Assembly: GCA_021157895.1 (NCBI GenBank) | Contig: JAGGVQ010000016.1 | Coordinates: forward strand, 1-44,585 | DNA length: 44,585 nucleotides | Direction: 5' to 3' | Source of the DNA: Dehalococcoidia bacterium | GTDB lineage: Bacteria > Chloroflexota > Dehalococcoidia > GIF9 > AB-539-J10 | Part shown: piece by piece, positions 4,488 through 44,510 of the stretch | Numbering within the stretch: position 1 is the first letter of the stretch | How the letters are laid out: each line of letters starts with the position of its first letter | Position numbers and translations under genes: made by a program | Notes under the pieces: generated by a model | Seen by the model: only the letters and a program-made list of their open reading frames with translations | Database searches by the model: none | What the model was told of the DNA's origin: nothing

Positions 4488-5273
4488 TTGCAACAGTTAG
4501 AAAAAACCGTAGTAGTCAAGCTTGGTGGCAGTACCCTGGGGAATCATGACACCATCCTCAGTGATGTGGTCGAACTTCAAAAGCAGGGAGTACCGGTAGT
4601 ATTAGTTCATGGTGGTGCCCAGCGAGTTTCCCAATACCTCTCCCTTCTGGGTATCCCCACGACTTTCTACAAAGGGCTCAGGTTAACTGACAAAAGGACA
4701 TTGGAGATCGTGACTGCTGTACTTGCAGGGTTAGTCAATAAAGAACTCGTGGTAGCGATTCAAGGTCTAGGTGGAAAAGCCATCGGCCTAAGCGGCAGCG
4801 ACGGAAACCTCCTGCAAGCTAAGATAAAAGATCCTAATCTGGGTTATGCCGGTGAAATATTGGCCAGTGATCCTTCTATTCTGAAAATTATGCTTGCCGC
4901 AGGATATACACCAGTAGTGGCACCGATCAGTTTCGGCTTTGTGGATAACACAGCCACATTATTAAACGTAAATGGTGACACTGCTGCAGGCGAAATTGCG
5001 GTTGCGCTGGAAACCACAAACCTGATATTTCTTACTGATGTCAGTGGTATCCAAAATCAAGCTGGGAAAACCATCCCCCTGATCCACACAACAGAGGCCC
5101 GCGAAATGCTCTACAATGGAGATATATCAGGTGGCATGATTCCCAAGGTAGAATCCTGTCTCAGAGCATTAACTGTCATACGTAAAGCACGCATCATTGA
5201 TGGGAGAAAACCCCACAGCCTGTTAAATGAAATCAATGGTGCAACAGGAGGAACAACTATTGTCCCAGACTAA
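4488..5273 (+). CDS. argB: Acetylglutamate kinase
   Basis: VVVKLGGSTLG..., VHGGAQRVSQYL, LTDVSGI; TTG start. Confidence 0.95.
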   Translation: MQQLEKTVVVKLGGSTLGNHDTILSDVVELQKQGVPVVLVHGGAQRVSQYLSLLGIPTTFYKGLRLTDKRTLEIVTAVLAGLVNKELVVAIQGLGGKAIGLSGSDGNLLQAKIKDPNLGYAGEILASDPSILKIMLAAGYTPVVAPISFGFVDNTATLLNVNGDTAAGEIAVALETTNLIFLTDVSGIQNQAGKTIPLIHTTEAREMLYNGDISGGMIPKVESCLRALTVIRKARIIDGRKPHSLLNEINGATGGTTIVPD

Positions 5274-6447
5274 CTGGCAGGAACTAGAACACAGGCTATT
5301 CCTTAGAACATTCAATAGATCTCCCGTGACACTGGTACGCGGCCAGGGAGCCTGGGTCTGGGACGACAAAGGTAAGAAGTACCTCGATTTTGTCGGTGGC
5401 TGGGCAGTAGACAGCCTAGGACATTGCCCCACACCAATAATAGAAGCTTTGGAACTCCAATCTAGAACATTAATACAGGCATCCAACCAGTTTTACACTG
5501 TTCCCCAAATAGAACTAGCCCAACTTCTGGTACAACACAGTTGCCTTGACCGAGTATTCTTCGGCAACAGCGGGACAGAGGTCAATGAGGGAGCAGTAAA
5601 GCTAGCTCGGCGATATGGGAAGATCTACCTAAATGGTGCCTTTGAGGTTATCACAACAAGCAGTTCATTCCATGGCAGAACTTTAGCCATGACTGCTGCA
5701 ACAGGCCAGGATAAATTCCAGGATGCTTACACTCCATTGCCCGCTGGTTTTATAAATGTAAATTACAATGATTTTACAGCAATCAAGGCAGCAACCACTG
5801 AGCGAACCTGTGCTGTATTGTTAGAACCAATTCAAGGTGAGGGAGGGGTAAACCTGCCCGACGATGACTTTCTCAGTAAAGTACAGCACTGGTGCCAAGA
5901 GAAGGGAATACTGCTTATCCTGGATGAAGTTCAAACAGGTATGGGGCGCACTGGCACACTATTTGCCTATCAACAATATGGCATCGAACCAGATATTATG
6001 ACGCTGGCTAAAGGGTTGGGTAGTGGTGTCCCTATTGGAGCCTTGCTAGCAAAAGAACATGCCTCGGTATTTGTGCCTGGTGACCATGGGTCTACCTTCG
6101 GTGGCAACCCATTAGTTTGTGCTGCCGCCTATGCTGTAGTGAAATTTATGATTAGCAACAATATTCCCCAACATGTTGCAATTGTAGGGCTAAATCTCAT
6201 AAACCAGTTGAAGCAACTCGAGTTGGAGTTTAGTTTTATCACGAACGTAAGAGGACGAGGATTGCTGGTAGCACTGGAATTCGATACAGATATTGCTGCA
6301 AAAGTAATTCTGAGCTGCTTGAAGAGAGGGCTATTGCTCAACCGTGTAAAACCAAATACCATTAGGTTCATGCCACCTCTAATTATCACTGAGGCGGAAA
6401 TAGATAAGGCAATTGACATTTTAAGAAGTGCATTAAGGGAAACGTAG
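5260..6447 (+). CDS. argD: Acetylornithine aminotransferase (track start 5227; TTG 5260 fits RBS CAGGAGG better)
   Basis: Class III aminotransferase: FFGNSGTEVNEGAVKLAR, LILDEVQTGMGRTG, STFGGNPLVCAAA. Confidence 0.93.
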   Translation: MSQTNWQELEHRLFLRTFNRSPVTLVRGQGAWVWDDKGKKYLDFVGGWAVDSLGHCPTPIIEALELQSRTLIQASNQFYTVPQIELAQLLVQHSCLDRVFFGNSGTEVNEGAVKLARRYGKIYLNGAFEVITTSSSFHGRTLAMTAATGQDKFQDAYTPLPAGFINVNYNDFTAIKAATTERTCAVLLEPIQGEGGVNLPDDDFLSKVQHWCQEKGILLILDEVQTGMGRTGTLFAYQQYGIEPDIMTLAKGLGSGVPIGALLAKEHASVFVPGDHGSTFGGNPLVCAAAYAVVKFMISNNIPQHVAIVGLNLINQLKQLELEFSFITNVRGRGLLVALEFDTDIAAKVILSCLKRGLLLNRVKPNTIRFMPPLIITEAEIDKAIDILRSALRET

Positions 6448-28392: not shown

Positions 28393-29370
28393 CTACTCTT
28401 TATGATAAACATCTAGCATGGCCTTGGCTGTTTCGATGATATTCTGGCGGAGTTCTGCTGGTTCCAGCACCTCTATGCTTTCTCCCCACCCCAGTATCCA
28501 GGATCGAAACTCCACCGTATCGGTGACCTTCAGGCTCATTATTACTGAGCCATCACTCTGTTTCTCTAGCACCTGTGATGGGTGCCATACTGTCTCTGCC
28601 ATTATCCGGGCCAGCTCGGGGTCAGCGATCCTCAGCCTGATGGCCTTGACTTCGTCCTCCACGACGACACCCCAGGAAGATCCCAGAAGCTCATTAGCGT
28701 CGAAGTCAGAAGGAATAGTATAGGGCTCAGAGGTTGTCTCAATGGCATCTATGCGCTCTATCTTGAATGTTCTTAGAGCTTTAGCTCGGTGGCAGTAGGC
28801 GAAAATATAGCTGGAATGCCCGACTGCCGCCGGCTCAATAAAGTAAGGTTCGATAATTCGCCCGGTTGCCTTCTCTTCCCCCAGTGATTGGTACACTATC
28901 TTAACCCTGTGCCGCGATACCCATGCCTCAGTCAGGGTTGCCAGGATACTCAGGTGTTTTTCGTTCGTGGGTAGTTTTTGCATCCAGTCTAGAGTCCTCT
29001 GAATTTGCTCCCTTAGTGAGGGCGGGACTATGGAATCCAGCTTCATGAAGGTTGAAGCTACATTGGGGTCATAGCGATGGGCATAATTAAGCATCAGACG
29101 GGCGGCAAGGAAGATGTTCAGTGCCTCGGGCAGGGTAAACTGAATGGGAGGCAGGAAGTAATTTTCCTCAATGCCGCGTATGCTGCCTTTTTCCCAGAAG
29201 GGAATATGCAGCCTGGATTCGAGGTCATTAAGGTCGCGGTATATCTGCCGGGTGCTGACATTACAAATGCGGGCCAGGTCCTTTATCTTCAAGCCCGTGC
29301 GGTTCTGGTAGAGGAGATGCTCTATCTGTATTAAACGGAGGGTGCGGTCTTTCGTCTTACCCTTGCCCAT
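28393..29370 (-). CDS. HTH-WYL domain transcriptional regulator (track start 29403)
   Basis: LKIKDLARICNVSTRQIYRDLNDLE HTH; RVKIVYQSLGEEKATGRIIEPYFIEPAAVGHSSYIFAYCHRAKALRTFKIERIDAIE WYL. Confidence 0.9.
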   Translation of the reverse strand: MGKGKTKDRTLRLIQIEHLLYQNRTGLKIKDLARICNVSTRQIYRDLNDLESRLHIPFWEKGSIRGIEENYFLPPIQFTLPEALNIFLAARLMLNYAHRYDPNVASTFMKLDSIVPPSLREQIQRTLDWMQKLPTNEKHLSILATLTEAWVSRHRVKIVYQSLGEEKATGRIIEPYFIEPAAVGHSSYIFAYCHRAKALRTFKIERIDAIETTSEPYTIPSDFDANELLGSSWGVVVEDEVKAIRLRIADPELARIMAETVWHPSQVLEKQSDGSVIMSLKVTDTVEFRSWILGWGESIEVLEPAELRQNIIETAKAMLDVYHKE

Positions 29371-29460
29371 TTCATTCCTCCCCGGCGGGATAGCCCTTGT
29401 CACTATTGTAGCACTCTATTTCAATAACCATTCGTAGAAAATGAAAACCCCGGGCAAATT

Positions 29461-29481
29461 TGTGACAGAACTGATGTCAAA
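29461..29481. promoter_or_regulatory. Palindrome copy 3: TGTGACA-GAACTGA-TGTCAAA
   Basis: Same arms/spacing with one mismatch, in the divergent WYL/AAA+ intergenic region. Confidence 0.7.
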
Positions 29482-29542
29482 ACCCCGTGTTACCCTGATT
29501 CTGGGTAAAAAGTTGATCGATAGAAAGGAGGCAGAATAACAA

Positions 29543-30907
29543 GTGAGCGAAGAAGAAGTGACCCTGGAGGACTTGGAGGAGGAAGCAGAAACAGGAATGT
29601 TATCGATGCCCGACCTCATATGGCGCAGGCGAGAGAGACTGCAGCAAAAGAATAAAGCTACGATCGAGGACTTTCTCGGTGAGGGCGATCGAGCCGATGC
29701 GGTAACCATAATGCCAAGATACTATGGAGAGCTACTGACCTGGGCCCTCAAGCGTCACCTTGAAAAAGAGGGGTGGAAAGTTATACGAGCCCTCGGCTAC
29801 CACGGGCGTAAGCCCGTGTATATAGACGTGAGCACGGACTATGATCATCACGAGAACCTCTTGAGGGATGGCCAGTTGCTGATAGAAAAGGGTGACAGAC
29901 ATTTCGTAGTCACCGTCGATATAAACCTGCAGTGGAGGAACTCAGTCCAGGTGGAGGCTCCTGCCCCCCAAAAGAAGGCGGTGGAGAGATTTGTTCATGA
30001 AGTTAAGATCATTGCTGAAAAGCAAAACTTCTACCGGGGCAAAAAGATTGAATTCGGAGGGCGCATTCACTTTCTGAATGTCAGGGATAAATCGTGGGAC
30101 AGCATCATCCTAGATACAGATGTAATGAGGGAAATAAGGGCCAATACCATCGAGTTCTTGAACAAAAGGGAATGCTGGGCGAAATATGGTATACCTCAGA
30201 AAAGAGGTATTCTCCTGGCAGGTGAGCCAGGCACCGGAAAGACAGTAATCTGTAAAGCCCTGATGGCAGAATCAGATGGAGTGACCTGCATCACCGCCAA
30301 TGCTTATGCCTTAAGTGCCGATGGATATATCACTGAGCTTTATGATATGGCAGAGGACCTGAGCCCCTGCATCGTATTTATCGAGGACATAGACCTGATA
30401 GGGCTAAACCGGGAGGAGAATCATTACCAGCATGGCCCTGCCTTACTTTCGCTTCTCAATGTACTCGACGGAGTTGAGGAGAAGCAGGAAATAATAACCG
30501 TGGCCACTACCAACAGCCTGGATGCGCTGGACAGGGCGATAACCCAGCGCCCTTCCCGCTTTGATCGCGTGGTAAAGCTCTCTCTCCCGTTACTGGAGGA
30601 ACGGAAAAAGCTGGTGAGCCTGCTGAGCCAGAAGATTCCGGTGGATGAGCCCACGCAGGATTATATCGCCCGCAAGGCAGAACGCTGTACGCCGGCGCAG
30701 CTGCAGGAGATTGTCTACAGCCTGGTTATCGAGCACGATGAAGAGTTCTCCGAATTGCCCAACCCTGAGATCAGCAAGGATGATGTTGACCACATCATCT
30801 CCAGGATAAATGGTAGGAACGGACACCGGATAGGCTTCGACCTTTCAGATAGCCGTGATGGTCATAAGGCGGGATACCTGGAAGTCCGGGGGAAAGGGGG
30901 ATGTTGA
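29543..30907 (+). CDS. AAA+ ATPase (FtsH/Bcs1-like central domain) with novel N-terminal region
   Basis: RGILLAGEPGTGKTVICKALMAE Walker A, CIVFIEDIDLIG Walker B, RPSRFDRVVKL; RBS AAAGGAGG. Confidence 0.9.
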   Translation: MSEEEVTLEDLEEEAETGMLSMPDLIWRRRERLQQKNKATIEDFLGEGDRADAVTIMPRYYGELLTWALKRHLEKEGWKVIRALGYHGRKPVYIDVSTDYDHHENLLRDGQLLIEKGDRHFVVTVDINLQWRNSVQVEAPAPQKKAVERFVHEVKIIAEKQNFYRGKKIEFGGRIHFLNVRDKSWDSIILDTDVMREIRANTIEFLNKRECWAKYGIPQKRGILLAGEPGTGKTVICKALMAESDGVTCITANAYALSADGYITELYDMAEDLSPCIVFIEDIDLIGLNREENHYQHGPALLSLLNVLDGVEEKQEIITVATTNSLDALDRAITQRPSRFDRVVKLSLPLLEERKKLVSLLSQKIPVDEPTQDYIARKAERCTPAQLQEIVYSLVIEHDEEFSELPNPEISKDDVDHIISRINGRNGHRIGFDLSDSRDGHKAGYLEVRGKGGC

Positions 30908-31083
30908 GCAGGCTAATGAGGTTAGTCCTGATTCCACCCCTGGTGATTGCGGTGACAGCACTGGTGATCATCGGGCTGGTGAACTTCGACCTGCTGATGG
31001 CAATAGTTCCCAAGCTCATAGTGGCAATTATCGCTGTTGGAGTGCCCATGCTCGTCGTTAAGATGATGTTTTTCCCTAAATGA
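30901..31083 (+). CDS. Small two-TM protein, 60 aa
   Basis: ATG overlaps the end of the AAA+ gene (translational coupling); hydrophobic. Confidence 0.65.
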   Translation: MLSRLMRLVLIPPLVIAVTALVIIGLVNFDLLMAIVPKLIVAIIAVGVPMLVVKMMFFPK

Positions 31084-31108
31084 AATAAGTAAGAAGGAGG
31101 TGAGAGAG

Positions 31109-31258
31109 ATGAAGAACCCGAGGATATGCCCGAACTGCAAGGGGACTGGGAAGGTACCCAGGAAGGACCTGCCGCCTCTGATGAGAGGGGCGATTGGTGT
31201 TCGCCAGCATGACGAATGTCCGATTTGCAACGGCCTTGGCTATGTCGAAGGCAGCTGA
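31109..31258 (+). CDS. DnaJ-type zinc-finger micro-protein, 49 aa (absent from ORF track)
   Basis: MKNPRICPNCKGTGKVPRKDLPPLMRGAIGVRQHDECPICNGLGYVEGS: two CxxCxGxG motifs; RBS AAGGAGG. Confidence 0.8.
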   Translation: MKNPRICPNCKGTGKVPRKDLPPLMRGAIGVRQHDECPICNGLGYVEGS

Positions 31259-31356
31259 TAGTCTGTTTGGGCGAGGGAGAGAAACAGTGGGTGGTGGCAT
31301 CGCCTCTTTCCCGAGGGGTGGTGCTACCGCCTCATGTATAGTAGAAGAGGATTAAT

Positions 31357-32223
31357 TTAGTAACTCGATTGCTTGTTTATCAGTTTCGAGGCCCATTCTA
31401 TAGCTTCGGGATACTGACTCGTGTCCAGTACGAACTCTTGCCCTTGGGGCACTGTCTCTAGATATGTATAATTTCCCTCTTGACTCCATCTTTTCTGATT
31501 TGAATGACAGCTGAGCGGTTGGCGTCCGTGACTCGAATATGGATAGAACCACTTCGGGAGTCGCCAGAACGATCGAGTTTTGTTTGGCGCAGTCAGGCGC
31601 AGGCTATCATCATAATAGGGGAAAACACCAGCTCCGCGAGCGCGGCTCGCAATATGACTGAGCGAGAGAGTTCTAGTAGCCACATATATTCGGTCGTTGG
31701 CGCTGAATTGCCTCTCAACATGTGGATGATACTTTGCCCACAGGGGCACGTCGTCGCGTTTAGGGTCCCAGATATCGCCAATTTGAAGCCAGCCGTAAAT
31801 TACATGAAGGTCGGGTTCTCCTCTGACATACCGATACTTACCATTTACAACTTCGGTTTTCCGGAACCATCCAAAGAAAAGGAAGAGGTCACCTTTTGTC
31901 ACCTTTTGATCTTCCAAGTGGGATTGTGCTTTCCCATCTTGGCCAAAGAGGGGTAGCCAACCTTCACCTCTTGGTAAATATATTTCTTCATCCAGATCTG
32001 GATCAAGGTGCACAGCATCGTCACGCGTGATTTTATTATCGGTGAGATTTGAAACAATATCGCCAATAACTCCAGATGGATATCCTCTGATATGCAGATC
32101 TCTATACCTGATTTTTGATTTCAGTGGGATCGGCAATGATAGTAACCTGCCATTCGGGAGAATGGGACTTGCTACTCTCCCGTTGGAAGAATCAAAACCT
32201 TTTCTACTCAAAATTATTTTCAT
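31357..32223 (-). CDS. Nmad3-like (nucleotide modification associated domain 3) protein (track start 32268)
   Basis: MKIILSRKGFDSSNGRVASPILPNGRLLSLPIP...HLDPDLDEE...GWLPLFGQDGKAQSHLEDQKVTKGDLFLFFGWFR. Confidence 0.8.
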   Translation of the reverse strand: MKIILSRKGFDSSNGRVASPILPNGRLLSLPIPLKSKIRYRDLHIRGYPSGVIGDIVSNLTDNKITRDDAVHLDPDLDEEIYLPRGEGWLPLFGQDGKAQSHLEDQKVTKGDLFLFFGWFRKTEVVNGKYRYVRGEPDLHVIYGWLQIGDIWDPKRDDVPLWAKYHPHVERQFSANDRIYVATRTLSLSHIASRARGAGVFPYYDDSLRLTAPNKTRSFWRLPKWFYPYSSHGRQPLSCHSNQKRWSQEGNYTYLETVPQGQEFVLDTSQYPEAIEWASKLINKQSSY

Positions 32224-32554
32224 GTTCTTAGAACAAAGCTCTGCTTTGATGTGCCATCCAAATATCAATTATAGCAGAGGGATTTTTGAAATGGAATGGC
32301 CATACCCCAGTGGTTCAGGTGGGTTATACTGAAAGACACTGACAGAATGCTAGGTGATATACTGAATAACTCTCTCAAATTATCTTAGTACTATGTACTA
32401 TTCTCTCCCGTAGCTGTGTTTTGGTAGTCTAGGTGAAAACACTGAACAAAATGACGAAATGTACAATCCTCCTTAGCCTGAATTGCCTGCCCTAAGAATT
32501 ACTCTTACATGCTATGGCGTTTTGGGCTCTTTACAGTGAAATGGTTCATTGGTG

Positions 32555-32600
32555 TCATGATCCGAAGGTCATCGGTTCGAAATTCCAACCCTAGCCACCA
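32555..32600 (+). pseudogene. tRNA-Met-like 3' half including CCA
   Basis: TCATGATCCGAAGGTCATCGGTTCGAAATTCCAACCCTAGCCACCA: anticodon-loop CAT, T-loop TTCGAA and terminal CTAGCCACCA, with degraded T-stem and no matching 5' acceptor. Confidence 0.65.
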
Positions 32601-32887
32601 AATTACTCTCACACTCGCCCGTAGGGCTGTGATGCCCTTCGGATTGCTTAGCAGCTGTCGGCAAGCATTCGCTGTTTGCTACAACTATTTTAACTTCTTT
32701 TTCCGACTGTTGATTATCAATAGCACACATCGAATTGTCCACCCCACAATAGTCAATTCATCCTAAACAATTCGAAGAGGGGAAAGGGTTGTCTTTTAAT
32801 TGACGGAGTTTTACACTAGTAGTACCCATTCATATCAAATACGGAATATGATTCTATAGAACGAAACCTATCTTATCAACTCGTGCA

Positions 32888-35800
32888 ATGGTAGACAGTG
32901 GTACGATATCAACATGTATTGACCGATGGAGAAAGCAACTTCTTGACCTCACTGGGCGTAACCGAATGCTTTTTTACCGGAGGTCTCGCGCATCGCTTGA
33001 AATCCAACACAATGAGAGCTTCGTATGGGATAAGCTGAGCGAAGAGGCCATAATAGAGCTGGATGAAAAATCACTACTACCAGAATCAATTTCCGAAAAA
33101 GACAAACCCAGGCATCTAGAAGAAGTCTCTAAACGAATTAAACGATTGTCTGAAGTTGCACATGCTTTTCTAGATGAGCAGGGTGTCCACGTTATATATG
33201 CAGCCTTCGGTTGGCTCAACTGGGTTGACGAGAGTAAGCCTCCTATGCCTGGAGAAGACACTGTTGATCTGAGTAACGGAAAGAAAGCACGGAAAGTTCA
33301 ATCTCCTTTATTATTTGTTCCCATCTCCCTTGAAAGAACGGCCAAAGGTGTTATACGTGCCAAGTTGGAAGAGAGTGCGGTAATTGAGACCAATCTTGCC
33401 CTGGAGTCCTACTTAGATCAGCAACACGGACTGGGCATCAACTTGGACCCGGATGACAACCTTACTCCATCAATGGTTGTCAAAGCTTGGCGCCAGGTCA
33501 TTTCAAACTACGAGCATTGGAGCGTAGAGGAAAGAGAAACTGTCCTGATAGATTCATTTTCATTTAGGAAAATATCGTTGCTAAGACAGCTTGAGCGATC
33601 TATTGATCGCATTAAAGAACAGCCAGTTTTGCAGGCGCTCTGCGGAGACGCTCAACAACTGTTAGAAGCACCCCCAGTGCCTTCGTACGACGATCTTGAT
33701 GATCCTAAGATTGCTGAGCGATTAAACATAGTGGTTCCAGCAGATTCAGCGCAGATTGAGGTTTTACATGCGGTTCAGTGTGGCGCTAACTTGGTTGTCC
33801 AAGGGCCTCCTGGAACAGGAAAGAGTCAAACCATTACGAATATCATTAGTACTCTTATCGCAGAAGGCAAACGTGTACTTTTTATTGCCGAGAAACGTCA
33901 GGCGAGGGAAATAGTTGTAGAAAACCTAATAGTATGCGGGCTTGGGGATATAGTACTTCATATCACGGAAGAAGTAAGCGGCCAAAGAGGAAGGTCACAG
34001 GCCAAACGCGATATCGTTGACCAGTTGTCGGACATACTAGGACAGGGTGCTGGCACTTACACGATTGACAGAGACTACCAAGCTGATTACAGACGCGTAT
34101 GCTCTGAATTGAATCATTATACAAGAGCTCTGCATAATAGAATTGGGCCGTCATCCATATCAACTCCATTCCAGTTAATGGCGAACTGGGCTCACCTAGA
34201 TCCTGCTTTGGCGAAAGCGGTGGGTGATCCCTCGTCCTTGCCGTCAATCACGAAAGTGAATGACGTCTGGATAGAACAGGCGTTTGAATTCGCCAGTCGA
34301 ATCGATGATCTTAACGAAGATGTTCTAAACTCCACTTCTAGCCCATGGTTCGAAGCACAAATATCGGGCTGGGATTCTACAACTGAAGCAGAAATATTGT
34401 CTGCATTAAATATTCTACTTGATGCCCCTAAGCACATCACAGAACTGTTGCAACAACATTGGGCAGAAAGCAGTATAGGTAGTGAATACACATTCCAGCA
34501 ACTAGAAAACCATATCCAACTACTCACCTTGGTTGGTGAGCATTACAAAACTAAGCAAAGAACTCTGGGAATCGTTACCACAAAGTACTGGCAAACAAGG
34601 GGTGATTTCTTGCGCTTTGAAGCAATGGGTGGAACCAATGCAGATTTTGCGCTATATACGTCATTGCAACTCAAGGAACTTCTTGATGTAATTCGCAAAG
34701 CATGTGGATTAATCGCTACGCTGTTTCCCAAGTACTCAGACACAGAATCGATCACAGAACTATCTCAGTTCGCAAATCTACTCCAAAACTCCATTAGCAC
34801 GGCACCAAAGTGTGCACAAATCCGAGGACGCTGTTTAGATGCTAAAGAGATTGGAATCACTGAGTTATTACTGGAACTAGTACGACTTAGAGAGCCGGGA
34901 GAGAGCATCAAAGAGGCTCTAGAAACAACCCTCGCCAAACATTGGGCTACAGAAGCTATTGAAAGCGATAAATCCTTGCTTACCGAGGGCAGCACATTAA
35001 ATAGACTTGCAGGGCGCCTACGAGAATATGAAAGGCGAGCAACTATAAACGCGAGAGCCCAGGTGCTTAATGCAGTTGCTCCCTACCGACCGAGTTTCCT
35101 AAATGTTGCTCCTAGAGATAGTGAACTAGGTATGCTGAAACAGCAAATCAATGCTAAAAGAAGAAAGTCCCTTCGCTGGCTTTTTACGAAGGCCGCAAAC
35201 TCGATCCTCCAAATGAAACCGTGTATTGTAGCCTCGCCTTTGGCCGTGGCACAATTCCTGCAATCTGATGCATACAAATTTGATATCGTCGTATTCGATG
35301 AGGCTTCACAAATTCCTACTGCTGATGCTGTAGTCCCAATTTCCCGCGCCCGTCAGGTAGTAGTTGTCGGAGATAGTCAGCAGATGCCTCCAACCAGCTT
35401 CTTTGATAGGGCTGTTAGTTTTGATACTGAAGATGCAGATGAATTCGCCTTTGAGAGCATGTTACAGTCCTGCGACGCAATATTACCATCACTTTCACTT
35501 ACCTGGCATTACCGTTCTCAAGATGAACGTCTGATTGCATTCTCTAATCATCACTTCTATGGTGGTAGACTCCTTACATTTCCGTCAGCATGGATAGAGC
35601 GTCCCGACCTCGGAGTTAAGTTTGTCTATGTCGATAATGCCCAATATGGACGTGGGGGCTCGAAAGCAAACCCTGAAGAGGCGGAACGTGCTATATCAAT
35701 TTTGGAGGCGGAGTTAAAGTCTGACCCACAACAGGAAGTGGGGATAATCGCTATGTCGATTGCCCAAGCCGCTGAAATTGAAGCTCGACTCGAACAGAAA

Positions 35801-37249
35801 TCTCAATCTTCCAACTATATTCGTGAGTGGCTTGACAGCGGTGGCAGAGTACGTAATTTGGAGACGGTTCAGGGTGACGAGTTTGATGTTTCTATACTTA
35901 GTTTCGGTTATGGTCGGGACTCTGCTGGAAATCTACAACTGAACTTCGGCCCATTGTCACGTGAAGACGGGTATAAAAGATTAAATGTCTGTATCACTCG
36001 CGCGCGAAAAAAGATGCTTGTGGTTTCCAGCATACGAAGTGTCGACATACCTCCGGGACGCGTACAAGAAGGAGGTCAACGCGTACGACAGTTTCTTGAG
36101 TACGCCGAGCACGGCTCATCAACACTTTCATCGGTACCGGAAAAAACAAGCGCTGTCTTTGTATACGAATCTCCATTTGAGCAGCAAGTAGCAAATGAAA
36201 TCATGGCATTTGGCTGGTCGGTGGATACGCAGGTAGGCGTCCAGAGATTTAGAATAGATATCGGTGTTAGACATCCAGAATACGCTGGAAAGTATCTCGC
36301 AGGAATTGAATGCGATGGAAAAACCTACCACAGCCATAAAACCGCAAGAGATCGGGATATCGGAAGACAACAGGTATTGGAACGATTGGGATGGAGTATC
36401 TTTCGCATTTGGTCAACAGACTGGTTTCGAGATAAGGAACGTGTTCTACAAAGAGTAAACGAATTTCTTACCTCTCTTTTACACAAGGATAATGATAATG
36501 GTGCTGAGGCGGGACCTCCCCACGTTCCAGAGACAGACAACCCAATAACAGAGAAAAATAGCGGCCCTAAATTTAACCCCATGAATCCTAACCACAAACT
36601 CGGAAATGTAAAATATCGCTTCGACATTCAATATTACACAGATCAGGAGTTGCTTCGTGCTCTTTCCTTAGCTTGCTTCGAGGTAGGCAGCATTCCCAAG
36701 GCAGATCTCGTTAGATTCACCACACGGTTTCTGGGCTTTCCTCGTGTAACAAAGAGGATTACGTTCAGGCTAGAATCGCTTGTATCGGAGGCTATTCAGG
36801 AGGGATATGTTAGGGAAGACGGAGGAAGATATCTGCCAGGTGATCAATCCAAGTACCACTTTACTGTTGTGGCTGAAGAGACACCGAAGACAAGAGAGGG
36901 AAGGATAGCTGAAGCAGTTATCCGACCGAGCCAAGATAAACCGGCTACTACAAAGCTACATCCCGAGCAACCAGTTTCTCCAAAGATGACCACGCGGTCA
37001 TATGTGAAAGAATCCTATAAGAGTGGACAGGCCGTAAGAATTCAATATTGTAACGCAGCTGGGCAGGCGACTACTCGTATCGTTGAAGTTTTGGGAGTGA
37101 GCACCAACTATTTCGATGCGTTTGACCATTTACGAAACGAGCAAAGAACTTTCAGAATAGACAGGGTAATGAAAGCAGAATGGGTAGGCATTAGACGCCA
37201 AAAAGCCAGATACTACTCCCCAAGCAGTTGGGTGGCGAGCTCCAAGTAG
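32888..37249 (+). CDS. DUF4011-type N-terminus + SF1 helicase + Vsr/MTES_1575-like nuclease + C-terminal WYL-like domain (1453 aa)
   Basis: CIDRWRKQLLDLTGRNRMLFYRR; VVQGPPGTGKSQTITNIIS; IVVFDEASQIPTADAVVPISRARQVVVVGDSQQMPP; IGVRHPEYAGKYLAGIECDGKTYHSHKTARDRDIGRQQVLERLGWSIFRIWSTDW; YFDAFDHLRNEQRTFRIDRVMKAEW. Confidence 0.9.
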   Translation: MVDSGTISTCIDRWRKQLLDLTGRNRMLFYRRSRASLEIQHNESFVWDKLSEEAIIELDEKSLLPESISEKDKPRHLEEVSKRIKRLSEVAHAFLDEQGVHVIYAAFGWLNWVDESKPPMPGEDTVDLSNGKKARKVQSPLLFVPISLERTAKGVIRAKLEESAVIETNLALESYLDQQHGLGINLDPDDNLTPSMVVKAWRQVISNYEHWSVEERETVLIDSFSFRKISLLRQLERSIDRIKEQPVLQALCGDAQQLLEAPPVPSYDDLDDPKIAERLNIVVPADSAQIEVLHAVQCGANLVVQGPPGTGKSQTITNIISTLIAEGKRVLFIAEKRQAREIVVENLIVCGLGDIVLHITEEVSGQRGRSQAKRDIVDQLSDILGQGAGTYTIDRDYQADYRRVCSELNHYTRALHNRIGPSSISTPFQLMANWAHLDPALAKAVGDPSSLPSITKVNDVWIEQAFEFASRIDDLNEDVLNSTSSPWFEAQISGWDSTTEAEILSALNILLDAPKHITELLQQHWAESSIGSEYTFQQLENHIQLLTLVGEHYKTKQRTLGIVTTKYWQTRGDFLRFEAMGGTNADFALYTSLQLKELLDVIRKACGLIATLFPKYSDTESITELSQFANLLQNSISTAPKCAQIRGRCLDAKEIGITELLLELVRLREPGESIKEALETTLAKHWATEAIESDKSLLTEGSTLNRLAGRLREYERRATINARAQVLNAVAPYRPSFLNVAPRDSELGMLKQQINAKRRKSLRWLFTKAANSILQMKPCIVASPLAVAQFLQSDAYKFDIVVFDEASQIPTADAVVPISRARQVVVVGDSQQMPPTSFFDRAVSFDTEDADEFAFESMLQSCDAILPSLSLTWHYRSQDERLIAFSNHHFYGGRLLTFPSAWIERPDLGVKFVYVDNAQYGRGGSKANPEEAERAISILEAELKSDPQQEVGIIAMSIAQAAEIEARLEQKSQSSNYIREWLDSGGRVRNLETVQGDEFDVSILSFGYGRDSAGNLQLNFGPLSREDGYKRLNVCITRARKKMLVVSSIRSVDIPPGRVQEGGQRVRQFLEYAEHGSSTLSSVPEKTSAVFVYESPFEQQVANEIMAFGWSVDTQVGVQRFRIDIGVRHPEYAGKYLAGIECDGKTYHSHKTARDRDIGRQQVLERLGWSIFRIWSTDWFRDKERVLQRVNEFLTSLLHKDNDNGAEAGPPHVPETDNPITEKNSGPKFNPMNPNHKLGNVKYRFDIQYYTDQELLRALSLACFEVGSIPKADLVRFTTRFLGFPRVTKRITFRLESLVSEAIQEGYVREDGGRYLPGDQSKYHFTVVAEETPKTREGRIAEAVIRPSQDKPATTKLHPEQPVSPKMTTRSYVKESYKSGQAVRIQYCNAAGQATTRIVEVLGVSTNYFDAFDHLRNEQRTFRIDRVMKAEWVGIRRQKARYYSPSSWVASSK

Positions 37250-37426
37250 CTTTATTACCCACTGTAGAAACTCTACAACACAGCATATCCGTACTCGTTA
37301 CTATCATTCTGCTATTTAGTATCACATCTTGCAGTTTACAGTCGGAGTCCCATTACACCTTCTAGCGGATTGTTTTACGTCCAGCTGTAGGAGTATGATT
37401 GGAGCGTAAGCTATGAGGTCATCAAG

Positions 37427-38689
37427 ATGTCGCAACATAGTGATTTGCATTCAGCCTTAAAGACAGAGGTGGTCCTTTCTGCTGAGGGAGGGGGAGTTCA
37501 GTTCAAGCTCGTAAGACTCCAGTCTTCCAAAGACGATGTTGTTTATAGCGTCCATGCTAATCCAAGCACATTCTCTTTTTCTGGAGTCCAGACTGCTGGT
37601 CTGCTGACACACCTGGGTTTTCAAGCTGGCTCGTGCGCTTTCTTTCCCGGAGGTAAATGCCTCGCAGCGGCCGTACGAATCGATTTCCCTTTGAAAGAGT
37701 TTGCAGAAGCATTCTCGAAGGCGTACCCCGCTCTCCGTAAAGCTGGAAAGCTACTGGGAGAATGTGGCTTTGTCTTGACCCAACCGGACCGGTTCTCAAC
37801 GTCCGGCGATGGACATACGTCTCCACAGTCAAAAGAGATGAAGCAATCTGAAGATGATCATTTCATCTTTAAGATGTCGTGGATTGAGGGAGGACGAGAC
37901 AAAGGATGGACATTTCACTATCACCCAAAGCACATTCCTTTGTCTGAGGAAATGCGAGCGGCATTTGCCTTCCTTGAATTACGCGAATTCCAGCAATGCC
38001 CATATTTCGATTTCGAACCATGCTATTATCGTTTCTTCTCATTCCAACAGAGGAGTGAGTCGTTCTTTGATAGCAATGCGGAATACGTGCATCGTAGTTT
38101 TGATAAGCATCACGATGCCTTCTCGGCGGGAACCGAGAAGCTTTTGGGAGTCGACGGATTACTGCGACCATTCGATTTTGAATTCTTACCTCAGGCTAAA
38201 AACGAGACAGGCACCTCTCGTCCGGCTACTACCTCTTACCACCAACCAATGCGTTCTGAGCCTTCAGACATACCGAAGTTCGATTTCGACGTCGCCGTGT
38301 CCTTCGCGGGTACCGAAAGGACCCACGCCGAGAGACTGTCCTTGTTAGTTAAAGATGCTGGCTTTGAGGCTTTCTATGACAGCTTTTACCCCGAGCAGCT
38401 CTGGGGAAAGGATCTAGTCGTGTTCTTTGACGAAATCTATCGGAAGCGCTCCAAATTCTGCGTAATATTCGTATCGCAGGAGTACCTCAATAGGATGTGG
38501 ACCAACCACGAGAGGAAGAGCGCGCAGGCAAGAGCCATTCAGGAGAGAGGTAATGAATATATTCTCCCTGTTAAGGTTGATGATAGTGAACTCCCAGGAC
38601 TTCAGCCCACGATCGGCTATCTTAGACTGAAAGAATATGGAATCGAGAGAATTGCGGAGATATTGGTGGCCAAATTGAAGAGTGTTTGA
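37427..38689 (+). CDS. TIR-domain protein with a novel ~280-aa N-terminal region
   Basis: FDFDVAVSFAGTERTHAERLSLLVKDAGFEAFYDSFYPEQLWGKDLVVFFDEIYRKRSKFCVIFVSQEYLNRMWTNHERKSA. Confidence 0.88.
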   Translation: MSQHSDLHSALKTEVVLSAEGGGVQFKLVRLQSSKDDVVYSVHANPSTFSFSGVQTAGLLTHLGFQAGSCAFFPGGKCLAAAVRIDFPLKEFAEAFSKAYPALRKAGKLLGECGFVLTQPDRFSTSGDGHTSPQSKEMKQSEDDHFIFKMSWIEGGRDKGWTFHYHPKHIPLSEEMRAAFAFLELREFQQCPYFDFEPCYYRFFSFQQRSESFFDSNAEYVHRSFDKHHDAFSAGTEKLLGVDGLLRPFDFEFLPQAKNETGTSRPATTSYHQPMRSEPSDIPKFDFDVAVSFAGTERTHAERLSLLVKDAGFEAFYDSFYPEQLWGKDLVVFFDEIYRKRSKFCVIFVSQEYLNRMWTNHERKSAQARAIQERGNEYILPVKVDDSELPGLQPTIGYLRLKEYGIERIAEILVAKLKSV

Positions 38690-40124: not shown

Positions 40125-40661
40125 CTAAATGTTTCTACTGGCTGTATTTGCATCATCAATAGGGTGTTTGTCTTGCATCTCGCCATAATCATAGATAGCT
40201 CTTAGATAAACTTCTATCTTAAGCGGCTCGTCTGAGAAATATTCCTCTACTACAAGTTTCACATCCTCCCATTTTAATTTACCCAATCCACAACCAAGTT
40301 GAGGCATAGCAATAGACTTAAGTCCCCATTGATGATAATGGTCTCTAAGATAAGACAAGCCTTGTTCTATCCACTCAATCCGAGATTGCCCACGCCAATG
40401 GTTCTTCGTAGGAAATAAAATTATCTTCGGTTGCTTCCAATCAAAGAAATCCATTTGTACAGCTAATTGAACTAATAGCAGCTTACCAGGTATTAGCTTG
40501 TTGTCAGCACAAGCTTTTTTATATGGCTTAACACATTCAGGGAACTTCTTCTTGAATATTTTAGCTATACCTTTACCCATAGCTCCTTTACAATTTACTG
40601 GATTTACCAAAGCCTCTGCTTGGCTCTCAAATAAATCTCTGCCTCTTATATACTTAATCAT
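40125..40661 (-). CDS. darG: Macro-domain ADP-ribosylhydrolase, DarG-like antitoxin
   Basis: EALVNPVNCKGAMGKGIAKIFKKKFPE; AMPQLGCGLGKLKWEDV; adjacent to darT. Confidence 0.85.
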   Translation of the reverse strand: MIKYIRGRDLFESQAEALVNPVNCKGAMGKGIAKIFKKKFPECVKPYKKACADNKLIPGKLLLVQLAVQMDFFDWKQPKIILFPTKNHWRGQSRIEWIEQGLSYLRDHYHQWGLKSIAMPQLGCGLGKLKWEDVKLVVEEYFSDEPLKIEVYLRAIYDYGEMQDKHPIDDANTASRNI

Positions 40662-40681
40662 ATCCCGATTACCCCCCTCCC

Positions 40682-41311
40682 CTAGAAATAATGTGATCTA
40701 TCTATAACGCAATAGCAATTCGTTTGATTTTTTAATGCAATTAATGCATCTTGGGAATAGACTACAATGTGATCAAAGAATCCGATTGGTACGTGATCAG
40801 GCACCAAAACTTCACTGGCCTTTTTCCGCTGATAATCAGAATTATAGCATTGGGGATATTCATTAGGTAGATGTATGATATCCCAATCAAGTTTATCAAG
40901 ATCTGCCACATCAGAGTAGAACTTGGTTTGTTTTGAAGCCGCATTTCCATCTGTAAAGAAAACTCCTTCCAACTGAAACACCCTGTTTGCATTTATCTCA
41001 ATAATTACTAATTCTTCCTGCGACAGACTTTGTTTACGTCCTTTGGTGGGTGCATTTGTTATGAGAATATATTGCATGGGAGTGTGGGTTGTGAAAAACA
41101 GAGGAACATAGCGATGAATTTCTTTGCCTATTTTTGGAACTTGACGCCGGCGGCGTCTTTGAACTGATGCGTTAGAAAAATCGTAATGATCTAAGTTTTG
41201 AACCCTTTCATGACACAAAATTCCTTGTGCGAAGATTGAAGGCATGTTCCTAAGGTGCACTATATAGTGTAATTGGTCTATATTGTATTTCTTTAATTGC
41301 TTATCTATCAT
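40682..41311 (-). CDS. darT: DarT-like DNA ADP-ribosyltransferase toxin
   Basis: YIVHLRNMPSIFAQGILCHERV, HRYVPLFFTTHTPMQYI, RKKASEVLVPDHVP (catalytic Glu region). Confidence 0.85.
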   Translation of the reverse strand: MIDKQLKKYNIDQLHYIVHLRNMPSIFAQGILCHERVQNLDHYDFSNASVQRRRRRQVPKIGKEIHRYVPLFFTTHTPMQYILITNAPTKGRKQSLSQEELVIIEINANRVFQLEGVFFTDGNAASKQTKFYSDVADLDKLDWDIIHLPNEYPQCYNSDYQRKKASEVLVPDHVPIGFFDHIVVYSQDALIALKNQTNCYCVIDRSHYF

Positions 41312-41450: not shown

Positions 41451-42542
41451 TCATCTTTCCTTTTTGGACTGAATTAATTCCTCAAGATCATGAGTAATCT
41501 CTTCAACATGCTTGATAGCAGATGCTGCTTGCGGCGGGGCACATTCAACGAATCTTTTGAAACAGACTATTGCCTCCTGAAACCTCCCCAAAGCTGCCAG
41601 AAAAAGTCCTTTCATACGCCATGCTTCAGCATCTCTGGGGTTTATCTCCAGAGCTCTGTCATAGCAGGCCAGTCTCTCTTGAGGCTTTCGCAGAAAAAGT
41701 CCTTTCATATGCCATGCTTCAGCGTCTCTGGGACTTATTTCTATAGCATTATCTAGGCAAGGTATTGCTTCTTCATTCCTATCGAGTGCCATTAGAGAAC
41801 GCCCCTTTTCCTTCCAAGCCTCAACAAATCTTGGGTTTACCTCCAGGGCCCTGTCATAGCAGGCTATTGCCTCCTGGGGCTTTCCCATCTTCGCCAGAGT
41901 AAACCCTCTGTTGAACCACACGTTATCGTCGTTTACATCTATCTCTAGAAGTTTATCAGTGCAAACTAGCGCTTCTTTATATCTTCCCAGCTCAAATAGA
42001 GAACGCCCCTTTCTATCCCAAGCTTCAATAAACCTAGGTTTTATCTCCAGGGCCCTGTTATAGCAAGCTATTGCCTCCTGGTACTTTCCCGTGTTCGCCA
42101 GTGAAATTCCTTTCAAAACGAGGTAGCCCTCCTTTGATCCCATGTCTTCTGAAGGCAAAGTGTCAGATTCTTTCATGGATCCATCGGGCTCACAATACAC
42201 GCAATCTCTCTCCCCAAACACAACACACATTGACAATCCTTTTTGTTCTGCAAGCTTTGAGGCAAGCTCGGCAACTATCTCTCGTGCGGATTCAGTAAGT
42301 TTTTTATCCTTATAGGGCTTTTGTAGCACTATCGTTAATTTACCTTTCTCGGACTCGACCCTGTCGCTGGGAACAAATGCTATGGGAAAATTGCTATATG
42401 CCCCGTTGCTAGTTTGTATGACGAGATAGGAGGGATGGGGGGTCAGGGAATTATCGGGACCTGTGGCGGGAATATGGTCTGCCATTTTGTCCGGATGCCC
42501 TTCGGATACCGATTCTGACCTGGTCGGATATTCTATTTTCAT
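41451..42542 (-). CDS. TPR-repeat protein with a MetK-like N-terminal tag and a domain shared with the next gene (track start 42629)
   Basis: MKIEYPTRSESVSEGHPDKMADHI...; CVVFGERDCVYCEPDGSMKESDTLPS; repeated TPRs (YQEAIACYNRALEIKPRFIEAW...); RBS AGGAGG before ATG 42542. Confidence 0.85.
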   Translation of the reverse strand: MKIEYPTRSESVSEGHPDKMADHIPATGPDNSLTPHPSYLVIQTSNGAYSNFPIAFVPSDRVESEKGKLTIVLQKPYKDKKLTESAREIVAELASKLAEQKGLSMCVVFGERDCVYCEPDGSMKESDTLPSEDMGSKEGYLVLKGISLANTGKYQEAIACYNRALEIKPRFIEAWDRKGRSLFELGRYKEALVCTDKLLEIDVNDDNVWFNRGFTLAKMGKPQEAIACYDRALEVNPRFVEAWKEKGRSLMALDRNEEAIPCLDNAIEISPRDAEAWHMKGLFLRKPQERLACYDRALEINPRDAEAWRMKGLFLAALGRFQEAIVCFKRFVECAPPQAASAIKHVEEITHDLEELIQSKKER

Positions 42543-42606
42543 TGTTTTCCTCCTGAAGATGTTTATCACTGTTTTCGTTTTCCATGACAAGCATTCCGTT
42601 TGCCAG

Positions 42607-43092
42607 CTATTTCGATGACTCAGCATCACCTATAGCCATTGAAGGTACTGAGGTACTTTTGGTTCGGGAGCCATCCAAGTTGAGATACTCGCAATCATCC
42701 TCACCGAATACAGCACACACCATGTGCTCCCCATGCAGTCGGTTGAACACTGTTTCCGCAATATCGAGAACAGCCTGCCTTGCCTTCGGAGTCAGCTTCC
42801 CGCCCAGATAGGGGTTCGGTAACACTATCCAGTAACTGTCTTCATGTTTCAGCTGCTGTGACTTATCGTAAAGAAATTCTACGGGAAAGCTCCCATAGGT
42901 TGCGGCCATATATCGTACGACAATATAAGGATAGTTCTTTTCGGGATCGAGCATCCTGTTTAGGGATGGGGTAGTAACAGAGCCTGGTATTCTAACGTTA
43001 TACTTCTGTTCCCGGGTATTGTCCGGAGTAATTGATTCTGAATCCGGTGAATGTTCTGCCCTGATGTTTTCCCTTCCAAAAATATTCTCCAT
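42607..43092 (-). CDS. Stand-alone paralogue of the TPR protein's N-terminal domain
   Basis: YIVVRYMAATYGSFPVEFL...KLTPKARQAVLDIAE...CAVFGEDDCEYLNLDGSRTKSTSVPS aligns with YLVIQTSNGAYSNFPIAFV...KLTESAREIVAELAS...CVVFGERDCVYCEPDGSMKESDTLPS. Confidence 0.8.
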   Translation of the reverse strand: MENIFGRENIRAEHSPDSESITPDNTREQKYNVRIPGSVTTPSLNRMLDPEKNYPYIVVRYMAATYGSFPVEFLYDKSQQLKHEDSYWIVLPNPYLGGKLTPKARQAVLDIAETVFNRLHGEHMVCAVFGEDDCEYLNLDGSRTKSTSVPSMAIGDAESSK

Positions 43093-43263
43093 CTTAGTTC
43101 TCCTTTTTATTTTTATGTCTCTAAAGTCATACAGGTTGGATCTCTTCTTTCCCCCAGAGCTTCCCCCTCAATCCAGTACGAGAAAGCGGGGATTCACTTT
43201 GTTTAAAACAAAAGCCGCCTCCTTTCTAGCTTCAGGCTATCGAGGATGCGGCCGTTACCGGGA

Positions 43264-43288
43264 CAACAAAAAACCTCCTGGCGGAGGT
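43264..43288 (-). terminator. Rho-independent terminator of the riboswitch expression platform
   Basis: Minus strand ACCTCCGCCAGGAGGTTTTTTG; an overlapping alternative pairing GGCGGTAGACCTCCGCC could act as antiterminator. Confidence 0.8.
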
Positions 43289-43323
43289 CTACCGCCTTCC
43301 TTTTTCACAGTCCCTGCTGTGAC

Positions 43324-43423
43324 CTATCGCTTCCCTTTCGGGCTGGCTTTAGCACCTTTAAGAAAGACTTAAAGGTTGCTGTGCGGATCTACGGGCCAGT
43401 TCCCTAACCGCAACTCTCGATAG
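43324..43423 (-). ncRNA. SAM-I (S-box) riboswitch
   Basis: Minus strand CTATCGAGAGTTGCGGTTAGGGAACTGGCCCGTAGATCCGCACAGCAACCTTTAAGTCTTTCTTAAAGGTGCTAAAGCCAGCCCGAAAGGGAAGCGATAG: P1 CTATCG/CGATAG, P2 GTTGCGG/CCGCacaGCAAC, GGGAACTGGCCC, P3 TTTAAG/CTTAAA, P4 CCCGAAAGGG, CTGGC/GCCAG pseudoknot. Confidence 0.93.
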
Positions 43424-43628
43424 CTGAAAACTTATTTTATTCTTAAAGAACTATGGTAATTATAACATAGTCATTATCGAATTTATATAGTCAGGAGGCT
43501 CTATCAAGCTAGGATTTGAGAATTATCCCTCTGGCACTCCTATATTGGTTGAATCAAGGGAGCTAACATACCTAAATTGGCCATTCCCTGAGGTTGGACC
43601 CCATTGTTAGAACAGGATAGGGGTGATA

Positions 43629-44510
43629 TTAAGGATTGGGTTCTGCTATCCTCAAAGGATCTAATGTTAAGGATTCTACCATACCTCTACTGGCTGCTTC
43701 TACCTGGGTTGCTGTGTACACCTCGTCCGGTGTCCGGTAACCATGGGCCTGATGGGGGCGTTCGGTGTTGTAGAAACAGAAGTAGTCACTGATACCTGCT
43801 CTGGTTTCTCTGCCATCCTCGCATGCTTTCAGATACACTTCCCCGCACTTTACTGACCGCCATAGCCTCTCTATGAACAGGTTGTCATTGTAGCTTCCCT
43901 TCCCATCCATGCTGATTCTGACTCCATGCTGCTTCAGGAGACCGGTAAACGCCTCGCTGGTGAACTGAGAGCCCTGGTCGGTGTTGAAGATATCTGGCCG
44001 TCCTCTCTTGAGTGCCTTCTCCAAAGCATCAACACAGAAGCCGGCGTCCAGTGTATTTGATAGCCTCCAGGAGAGCACATACCGGCTGTACCAGTCGATG
44101 ATGGCCACCAGGTAGAGGAATCCCCTCGCCATGGGAATATAGGTTATATCCGCCGCCCACACTTGGTTGGGCCGTGTTATCTTCATGCCACCCAGCAAGT
44201 ACGGGTAGATTTTATGGCCTGACGCTAGCTTACTGATCCCGGGGTGGCGGTAGATAGCCTTGAGCCCCATTATCCGCATGAGTCTGCGGACACGTTCCCG
44301 GTTGCCCTGATGGCTCTGACCTTTCAGCCAGGCAGCTATCTTGCGTGACCCGTAGAACGGCGTGACCAGATATTGACGGTCGATCAGCTTCATAAGGGTG
44401 AGATCCTCCTCAGAGATTCCTTGAGTCTGGTAGTACAGACCGGAGCGGCTAATTCCCAGTAACCGGCACTGGCATACTATTGAGAGCGACGGATGTCGGC
44501 GGTCCACCAC
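43629..44510 (-). CDS. IS3-family transposase OrfB (DDE integrase core)
   Basis: ITRPNQVWAADITYIPMARGFLYLVAIIDWYSR, FNTDQGSQFTSEAF, SYNDNLFIERLWRSVK, YNTERPHQAHGYRTPDEVY. Confidence 0.95.
   Translation of the reverse strand: MVDRRHPSLSIVCQCRLLGISRSGLYYQTQGISEEDLTLMKLIDRQYLVTPFYGSRKIAAWLKGQSHQGNRERVRRLMRIMGLKAIYRHPGISKLASGHKIYPYLLGGMKITRPNQVWAADITYIPMARGFLYLVAIIDWYSRYVLSWRLSNTLDAGFCVDALEKALKRGRPDIFNTDQGSQFTSEAFTGLLKQHGVRISMDGKGSYNDNLFIERLWRSVKCGEVYLKACEDGRETRAGISDYFCFYNTERPHQAHGYRTPDEVYTATQVEAASRGMVESLTLDPLRIAEPNP

Follow-up and report, generated by a model that had tools for sequence, protein, structure and literature searches.

Riboswitches are usually assumed to be tied to the pathway of their ligand. 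Among described systems, the leader analysed here is closest to the SAM-I (S-box) riboswitch (RF00162), with which it shares aptamer architecture, pocket bases, an intrinsic terminator and the logic of an off-switch; it differs in adding a second terminator, T2, whose 5′ arm is predicted to pair with the 5′ segment of the aptamer, and in having a MetK-fragment/TPR chimera under its control where a methionine or SAM gene would be usual. Two intrinsic terminators behind a single aptamer are also found in Bc1, a c-di-GMP-I riboswitch of the Bacillus cereus group in which the second terminator stays formed and masks the response (PMC11218506); our leader, with both terminators predicted, differs in its ligand and in a T2 that the 5′ segment of the aptamer is predicted to open. 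Spermidine riboswitches, which are SAM-I variants, likewise put an S-box fold ahead of genes that do not normally belong to the SAM regulon, but they control polyamine genes, and changes in their J1/2 and P3 internal loop alter the SAM-contacting bases (PMC10853860), whereas our leader has kept its pocket. Canonical S-box operons of the Dehalococcoidia (mtnA, threonine-synthase-like) belong to the same class as our locus and use the same aptamer family, yet the 30 strongest, at about 80–92 bits, have no T2. On the protein side, the described relative is MetK, whose start motif SESVSEGHPDK (PF00438, N-terminal domain) recurs in gene 2 of our operon, although only about 24 residues are left and the rest of the enzyme is missing.

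The locus lies near one end of a 44,585-nt stretch of a Dehalococcoidia contig, referred to here as the window (Table 1). A cmscan of the window returned RF00162 as its sole Rfam family, matched over its full length at 43426–43321 on the minus strand; the 49.1 bits of this match (E = 2.2e-8) exceed the gathering score, 44.4. An S-box at this position had been proposed in a preliminary description that named a covariance-model search as one check, and the search bears it out; the epithet "textbook" was too generous, since 49.1 bits is modest beside the strongest canonical Dehalococcoidia S-boxes. The aptamer is the only S-box present in the 737-kb, 68%-complete genome. Upstream of it no strong −35 hexamer was found, and the promoter scan performed no better than chance.

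In the RF00162 alignment, the pocket bases UAUC-GAGAG, GCAACC, AAGGUGC and GAUA are all of the SAM type; the SAM-contacting positions we take, from the solved structure, to be the P1 A-U/U, the J1/2 G, and the CAA and UG of the P3 loop. By its sequence, the leader is a genuine SAM-I RNA, from which we infer that it binds SAM. It is conceivable that the aptamer changed its ligand, as the spermidine-binding variants did, and that the odd genes reflect an odd ligand. The non-SAM gene context and the modest aptamer score would fit such a change, but J1/2 (GAGAG), GCAACC, AAGGUGC and GAUA are SAM-type and the same leader type precedes metK elsewhere, which leaves this explanation very improbable; a spermidine-variant aptamer in particular was rejected, as the bases of J1/2 and the P3 internal loop are unaltered.

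Table 1 Predicted features of the S-box operon in the window (positions from the first letter of the window)
Feature	Coordinates	Strand	Basis
TATAAT-like −10 hexamer, ~33 nt upstream of aptamer	43459..43464	-	Read from sequence
SAM-I (S-box) aptamer	43321..43426	-	RF00162 match; pocket bases conserved
Aptamer 5′ segment (P1 5′ strand, J1/2, P2 5′ strand), proposed T2 antiterminator	43405..43425	-	Complementarity to T2 5′ arm; covariation
Proposed T1 antiterminator: P1 3′ strand AGGTC (43325-43321) with GACCT (43289-43285)	43285..43325	-	Sequence and constrained fold
Intrinsic terminator T1	43268..43290	-	Terminator scan and folding; hairpin 43290-43271, then T-run
Intrinsic-terminator-like hairpin T2, loop motif CTCGATAGC	43205..43253	-	Model R1, 63.2 bits (window sequence is part of the R1 training set); stem covariation
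Gene 1 (P0002), 161 aa, rare uncharacterised family	42607..43092	-	ORF, good Shine-Dalgarno; homologues in G249 and G849
Gene 2 (P0001), 363-aa chimera: MetK N-terminus, P0002-like domain, TPR superhelix	41451..42542	-	ORF, good Shine-Dalgarno
MetK-derived start of gene 2, about 24-26 codons	42465..42542	-	PF00438 match; MetK identity
P0002-like domain within gene 2, residues about 38-133	42144..42431	-	35-38% identity to P0002
TPR region of gene 2, residues 137-363	41454..42134	-	Pfam TPR_1, E 2.5e-44; AlphaFold2 pLDDT mostly >90

The terminator scan and folding identify an expression platform comprising the T1 terminator and an AGGUC/GACCU antiterminator, a pairing that is maintained in the leader of genome G046 as AGGC/GCCT, on both sides. 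The intrinsic terminator of the preliminary description thus stands, while the second hairpin behind it had been overlooked. T2 is present in 16 leaders of at least seven families, 63–87 nt 3′ of the aptamer and with a conserved loop, CUYGAUAGC. The T2 alignment and the model built on it, R1, draw on the 14 of these 16 leaders that have a T-rich tail. Its stem covaries: 97% of cells are paired, and 13 changes affect both sides of a pair, compared with 3.9 in shuffles (0/500). Across the 393 genomes of the class, R1 yielded ten matches at or above 45 bits, every one of them 3′ of a T2-type S-box and every one a training member, so that the search measures specificity and not the discovery of new members; on 30 canonical S-box loci R1 found no match (best E 0.94). 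T2 is missing from one leader of this type, G062b, and is degenerate in G262.

The 5′ arm of T2 and the 5′ segment of the aptamer are complementary; their predicted duplex in the window reaches −27.2 kcal/mol. In the 16 leaders, 89% of the cells of this pairing are paired and six pairs show changes on both sides; such cells number 13 against 5.9 in shuffles (0/500) and 0–4 in slid versions, with the shuffles preserving column composition and not the relatedness among leaders, so that the pairing is supported but unproven. Furthermore, duplexes within a leader are more stable than those between swapped leaders (mean −25.2 versus −22.4 kcal/mol; 0/20000 permutations), a contrast weakened by the wrong T2 arms entered for G046 and G190, for which the covariation test used the right ones. 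The complementarity has a mean z of −3.6 in T2-type leaders versus +0.2 in 29 canonical Dehalococcoidia S-boxes. The P2 part of the pairing is imperfect in several leaders, and pair 14–25 fails in 7/16. In nested folds of the window leader, the state with P1 and T2 (−83.9 kcal/mol) and the one in which T2 pairs with the 5′ segment of the aptamer (−82.8 kcal/mol) lie about 1 kcal/mol apart.

These observations suggest that a single aptamer probably controls two terminators, T1 and T2. At high SAM, the aptamer would fold with P1 keeping both of its own strands, T1 and T2 would form, and transcription would halt ahead of gene 1, leaving the operon off. At low SAM, the P1 3′ strand would pair with the 5′ arm of T1 and open it, and the released aptamer 5′ segment would do the same to the 5′ arm of T2; with both terminators open, P0002 and P0001 would be produced. 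If this model is true, the leader has an unusual expression platform, in which one aptamer acts on two successive terminators through both strands of P1.

Backup terminators are common. T2 may thus be a mere backup that does not switch, its 5′-arm complementarity being left over from an origin as a copy of the P1/P2 3′ strands; the base stem of T2 could remain paired while the loop is bound, and in Bc1 the downstream terminator does stay formed (PMC11218506). The compensatory changes between aptamer and T2 arm, and the lack of the complement in canonical S-boxes, speak against a passive T2, and we consider it possible but doubtful. Our literature search, mostly of freely accessible papers, found no account of an S-box with such a second terminator, and the aptamer-tied T2 appears to be the new, previously undescribed element of this locus. 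In a few other leaders (L077, ~4490–4540; L078, ~4800–4850; L082, ~6064–6130), the 3′ arm of T2 includes an AAGGAGG immediately before the start codon, where T2 may also mask the ribosome-binding site.

The two genes behind the leader are those of the preliminary description, a small protein and a TPR protein. Gene 1 had no match in Pfam, PHROGs or PADLOC, and clear homologues of its product, P0002, beyond the window occur only in G249 and G849 (genomes surveyed: 84 from the order, 393 from the class, 151 from the order to which G249 belongs and 400 from the phylum); there are none in other genomes among the 84 of the window's own order, and no relatives in viral contigs, phages or plasmids. 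The AlphaFold2 model of P0002 (pLDDT 52.7) was too poor for a fold search. In G249, an S-box (L057, 10084–9978) is followed by the P0002 homologue (9804–9382) and by metK (9391–8168), which overlaps it, and genes for a helicase and a restriction-modification enzyme of type IIG lie nearby. The association with metK suggests a SAM-related role for the small-protein family. The homologue in G849 is free-standing, with no S-box or metK within the 3.3 kb examined.

Gene 2 opens with 24 residues of MetK (MKIEYPTRSESVSEGHPDKMADHI). Its first ~31 residues resemble the MetK N-terminus, residues 8–31 matching PF00438 with 24.6 bits (E = 3.7e-5), a score below the curated cut-off because the MetK piece is a fragment; model positions 5–28 alone are matched, the catalytic remainder is absent, and gene 2 is not a complete MetK. 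Of its first 24 residues, 17 are identical to the S-box-controlled MetK of G148 and 16 to the MetK of JANYKH and the first MetK of G046, compared with 13 for the housekeeping MetK of the window genome, which is encoded on another contig in an ahcY-metK operon without an S-box. The same ordering holds for the first 78 nt, which agree ungapped at 54–58 positions with S-box-controlled metK genes and at 44 with the housekeeping gene. A GTG start at 42629 is unlikely, as AGGAGG stands before the ATG at 42542. Confident AlphaFold2 prediction of P0001 is confined to the TPR part, the small domain being poorly predicted. Close relatives of P0001 were absent from 84,980 species genomes, and its PHROGs matches were of TPR type alone, with weak E-values. 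The chimera comes from a single contig of an incomplete MAG, and an assembly error at the metK-fragment junction is conceivable. T4-like matches to another protein, P0003 (E about 0.1), were judged to be chance.

To the preliminary description, neither gene looked like a methionine synthesis, transport or SAM enzyme, which is partly right. The S-box controls no complete methionine or SAM gene, given a gene 1 without family match and a gene 2 with ~24 MetK residues; the description missed the MetK N-terminus of gene 2 and the metK that adjoins the gene 1 homologue in G249. Because gene 2 begins as MetK and G249 has the order S-box, P0002 homologue and metK, the operon resembles an S-box-metK operon that has been remodelled, matching the G249 order with the fusion gene in the place of metK. 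From the scar in gene 2, metK is the likely source of the leader. We infer an order of events in which an ancestor arranged as in G249 had its metK replaced by a fusion in which the metK start codon and first ~24 codons are joined to another copy of the small-protein domain and to a TPR scaffold. P0001 and P0002 would then most likely be a TPR scaffold and its small partner, with an accessory or regulatory role and not that of a SAM synthase; that the scaffold carries the domain of the small partner suggests that the two form a complex. Taken together, we think it probable that a metK-derived SAM-I off-switch now controls a remodelled operon whose products are an accessory or regulatory pair induced at low SAM.

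The locus might instead be in decay, with the S-box and MetK start as relics from which the genes are transcribed by chance, to no SAM-relevant end. The separate housekeeping ahcY-metK operon makes the S-box copy dispensable, gene 2 retains little of MetK, and an IS3-type transposase stands just upstream. On the other hand, the pocket bases are all intact, as are T1 and T2, each ORF is open and has a good ribosome-binding site, and the same leader is kept before non-metK genes in several other genomes; decay is therefore unlikely in our view. The transposase itself (43629–44510, minus strand; rve, HTH_21) lies directly upstream of the leader and near the contig end.

A search of the 84,980 species genomes turned up the core pattern of the leader in seven contigs, each with the label Dehalococcoidia or Chloroflexi; none of the IMG/VR viral contigs had it, so that a phage origin is unsupported. 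Together with lower-scoring S-boxes of other families, the core-pattern contigs make up a set of about 18 leaders. In five loci (G046, JANYKH, G148, G190 and G249) the leader precedes metK, directly or after a small protein. About twelve loci, the window included, have other genes behind it: small unknown ORFs in G056, G062 and G011; a 316-aa protein, twice, in G179; a 75–81-aa protein, once in G397 and twice in G262; and further genes in G281 and G340. The strongest S-boxes of the class, by comparison, precede mtnA, threonine-synthase-like and similar genes. The preliminary description had offered a SAM-responsive accessory function or a hijacked leader; since this type of leader stands ahead of metK at five loci and ahead of different genes at about twelve, the survey supports the hijacked leader well, with metK as its likely source, so that the proposal as a whole is partly sustained. 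Here the SAM switch and its leader appear to have been transferred together to unrelated genes, a move of which the window retains the molecular scar.

Tyrosine recombinases or transposases flank several copies of the leader. In five of the seven core-pattern contigs, the end comes within 600 nt on the downstream side of the aptamer (0.63 expected under uniform placement, p = 7e-5), which suggests repeated or variable sequence there, such as population variants; the contigs that end soon after the leader are L043, L045, L047, L048 and L049.

Phage T3 SAMase counters type I restriction-modification, and E. coli turns on methionine genes in response to phage SAMases (PMC7877911). Such lyases provide a rationale for a SAM-depletion alarm, in which defence genes recruited the leader and a fall in SAM, for example through a phage SAM lyase, induces restriction systems, metK and their partners. 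Behind the 75–81-aa protein of G262 comes either a DNA methyltransferase that has an Mrr domain or HsdR-HsdS; in G249 a leader stands beside the type IIG system, in G056 one is near type I restriction-modification and CARF genes, and in the window one lies upstream of DarT/DarG. Several leader-controlled genes are, however, not recognisably defence genes, defence genes form islands anyway so that adjacency may be chance, and DarTG may have its own promoter. The window context (DarT/DarG, a TIR protein, a helicase) permits an alarm, which we nevertheless rate as quite improbable. Our literature search, again mostly of freely accessible papers, found no S-box on restriction genes. A broader reading, which we advance tentatively, is of a mobile dual-terminator S-box, with one aptamer-helix strand for each terminator, that moved from metK onto defence and accessory genes as a response to falling SAM, the window operon being an intermediate caught on the way. 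It raises a testable question, namely whether the SAM level serves bacteria as a cue for restriction and other accessory genes.

The DarT/DarG pair (40125–41311, minus strand; PADLOC E = 2.2e-40 and 8.2e-56, respectively) shares its strand with gene 2 and begins 139 nt beyond it, with a TATAAT-like box in the gap; the terminator scan found no terminator between them, and the pair could be partly co-transcribed with the S-box operon. Farther along, 28393–38689 resembles a defence island, with a 1453-aa helicase-nuclease of PDC-S37/Hhe type, a TIR protein, a WYL regulator and an IetA-like AAA ATPase. In G046, an S-box is followed by two tandem metK genes (L046, 3591–4910), the first of which encodes a MetK of a branch 67% identical to that of G249 and separate from housekeeping MetK; the contig ends inside the aptamer of a second S-box. 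The 75–81-aa family (L076, 9722–9952; L077; L078) has an invariant GDPDIIATD and no Pfam match and occurs in two Dehalococcoidia families. The G179 contigs L079 and L080 carry near-duplicate S-box islands that share the downstream 316/317-aa and small genes.
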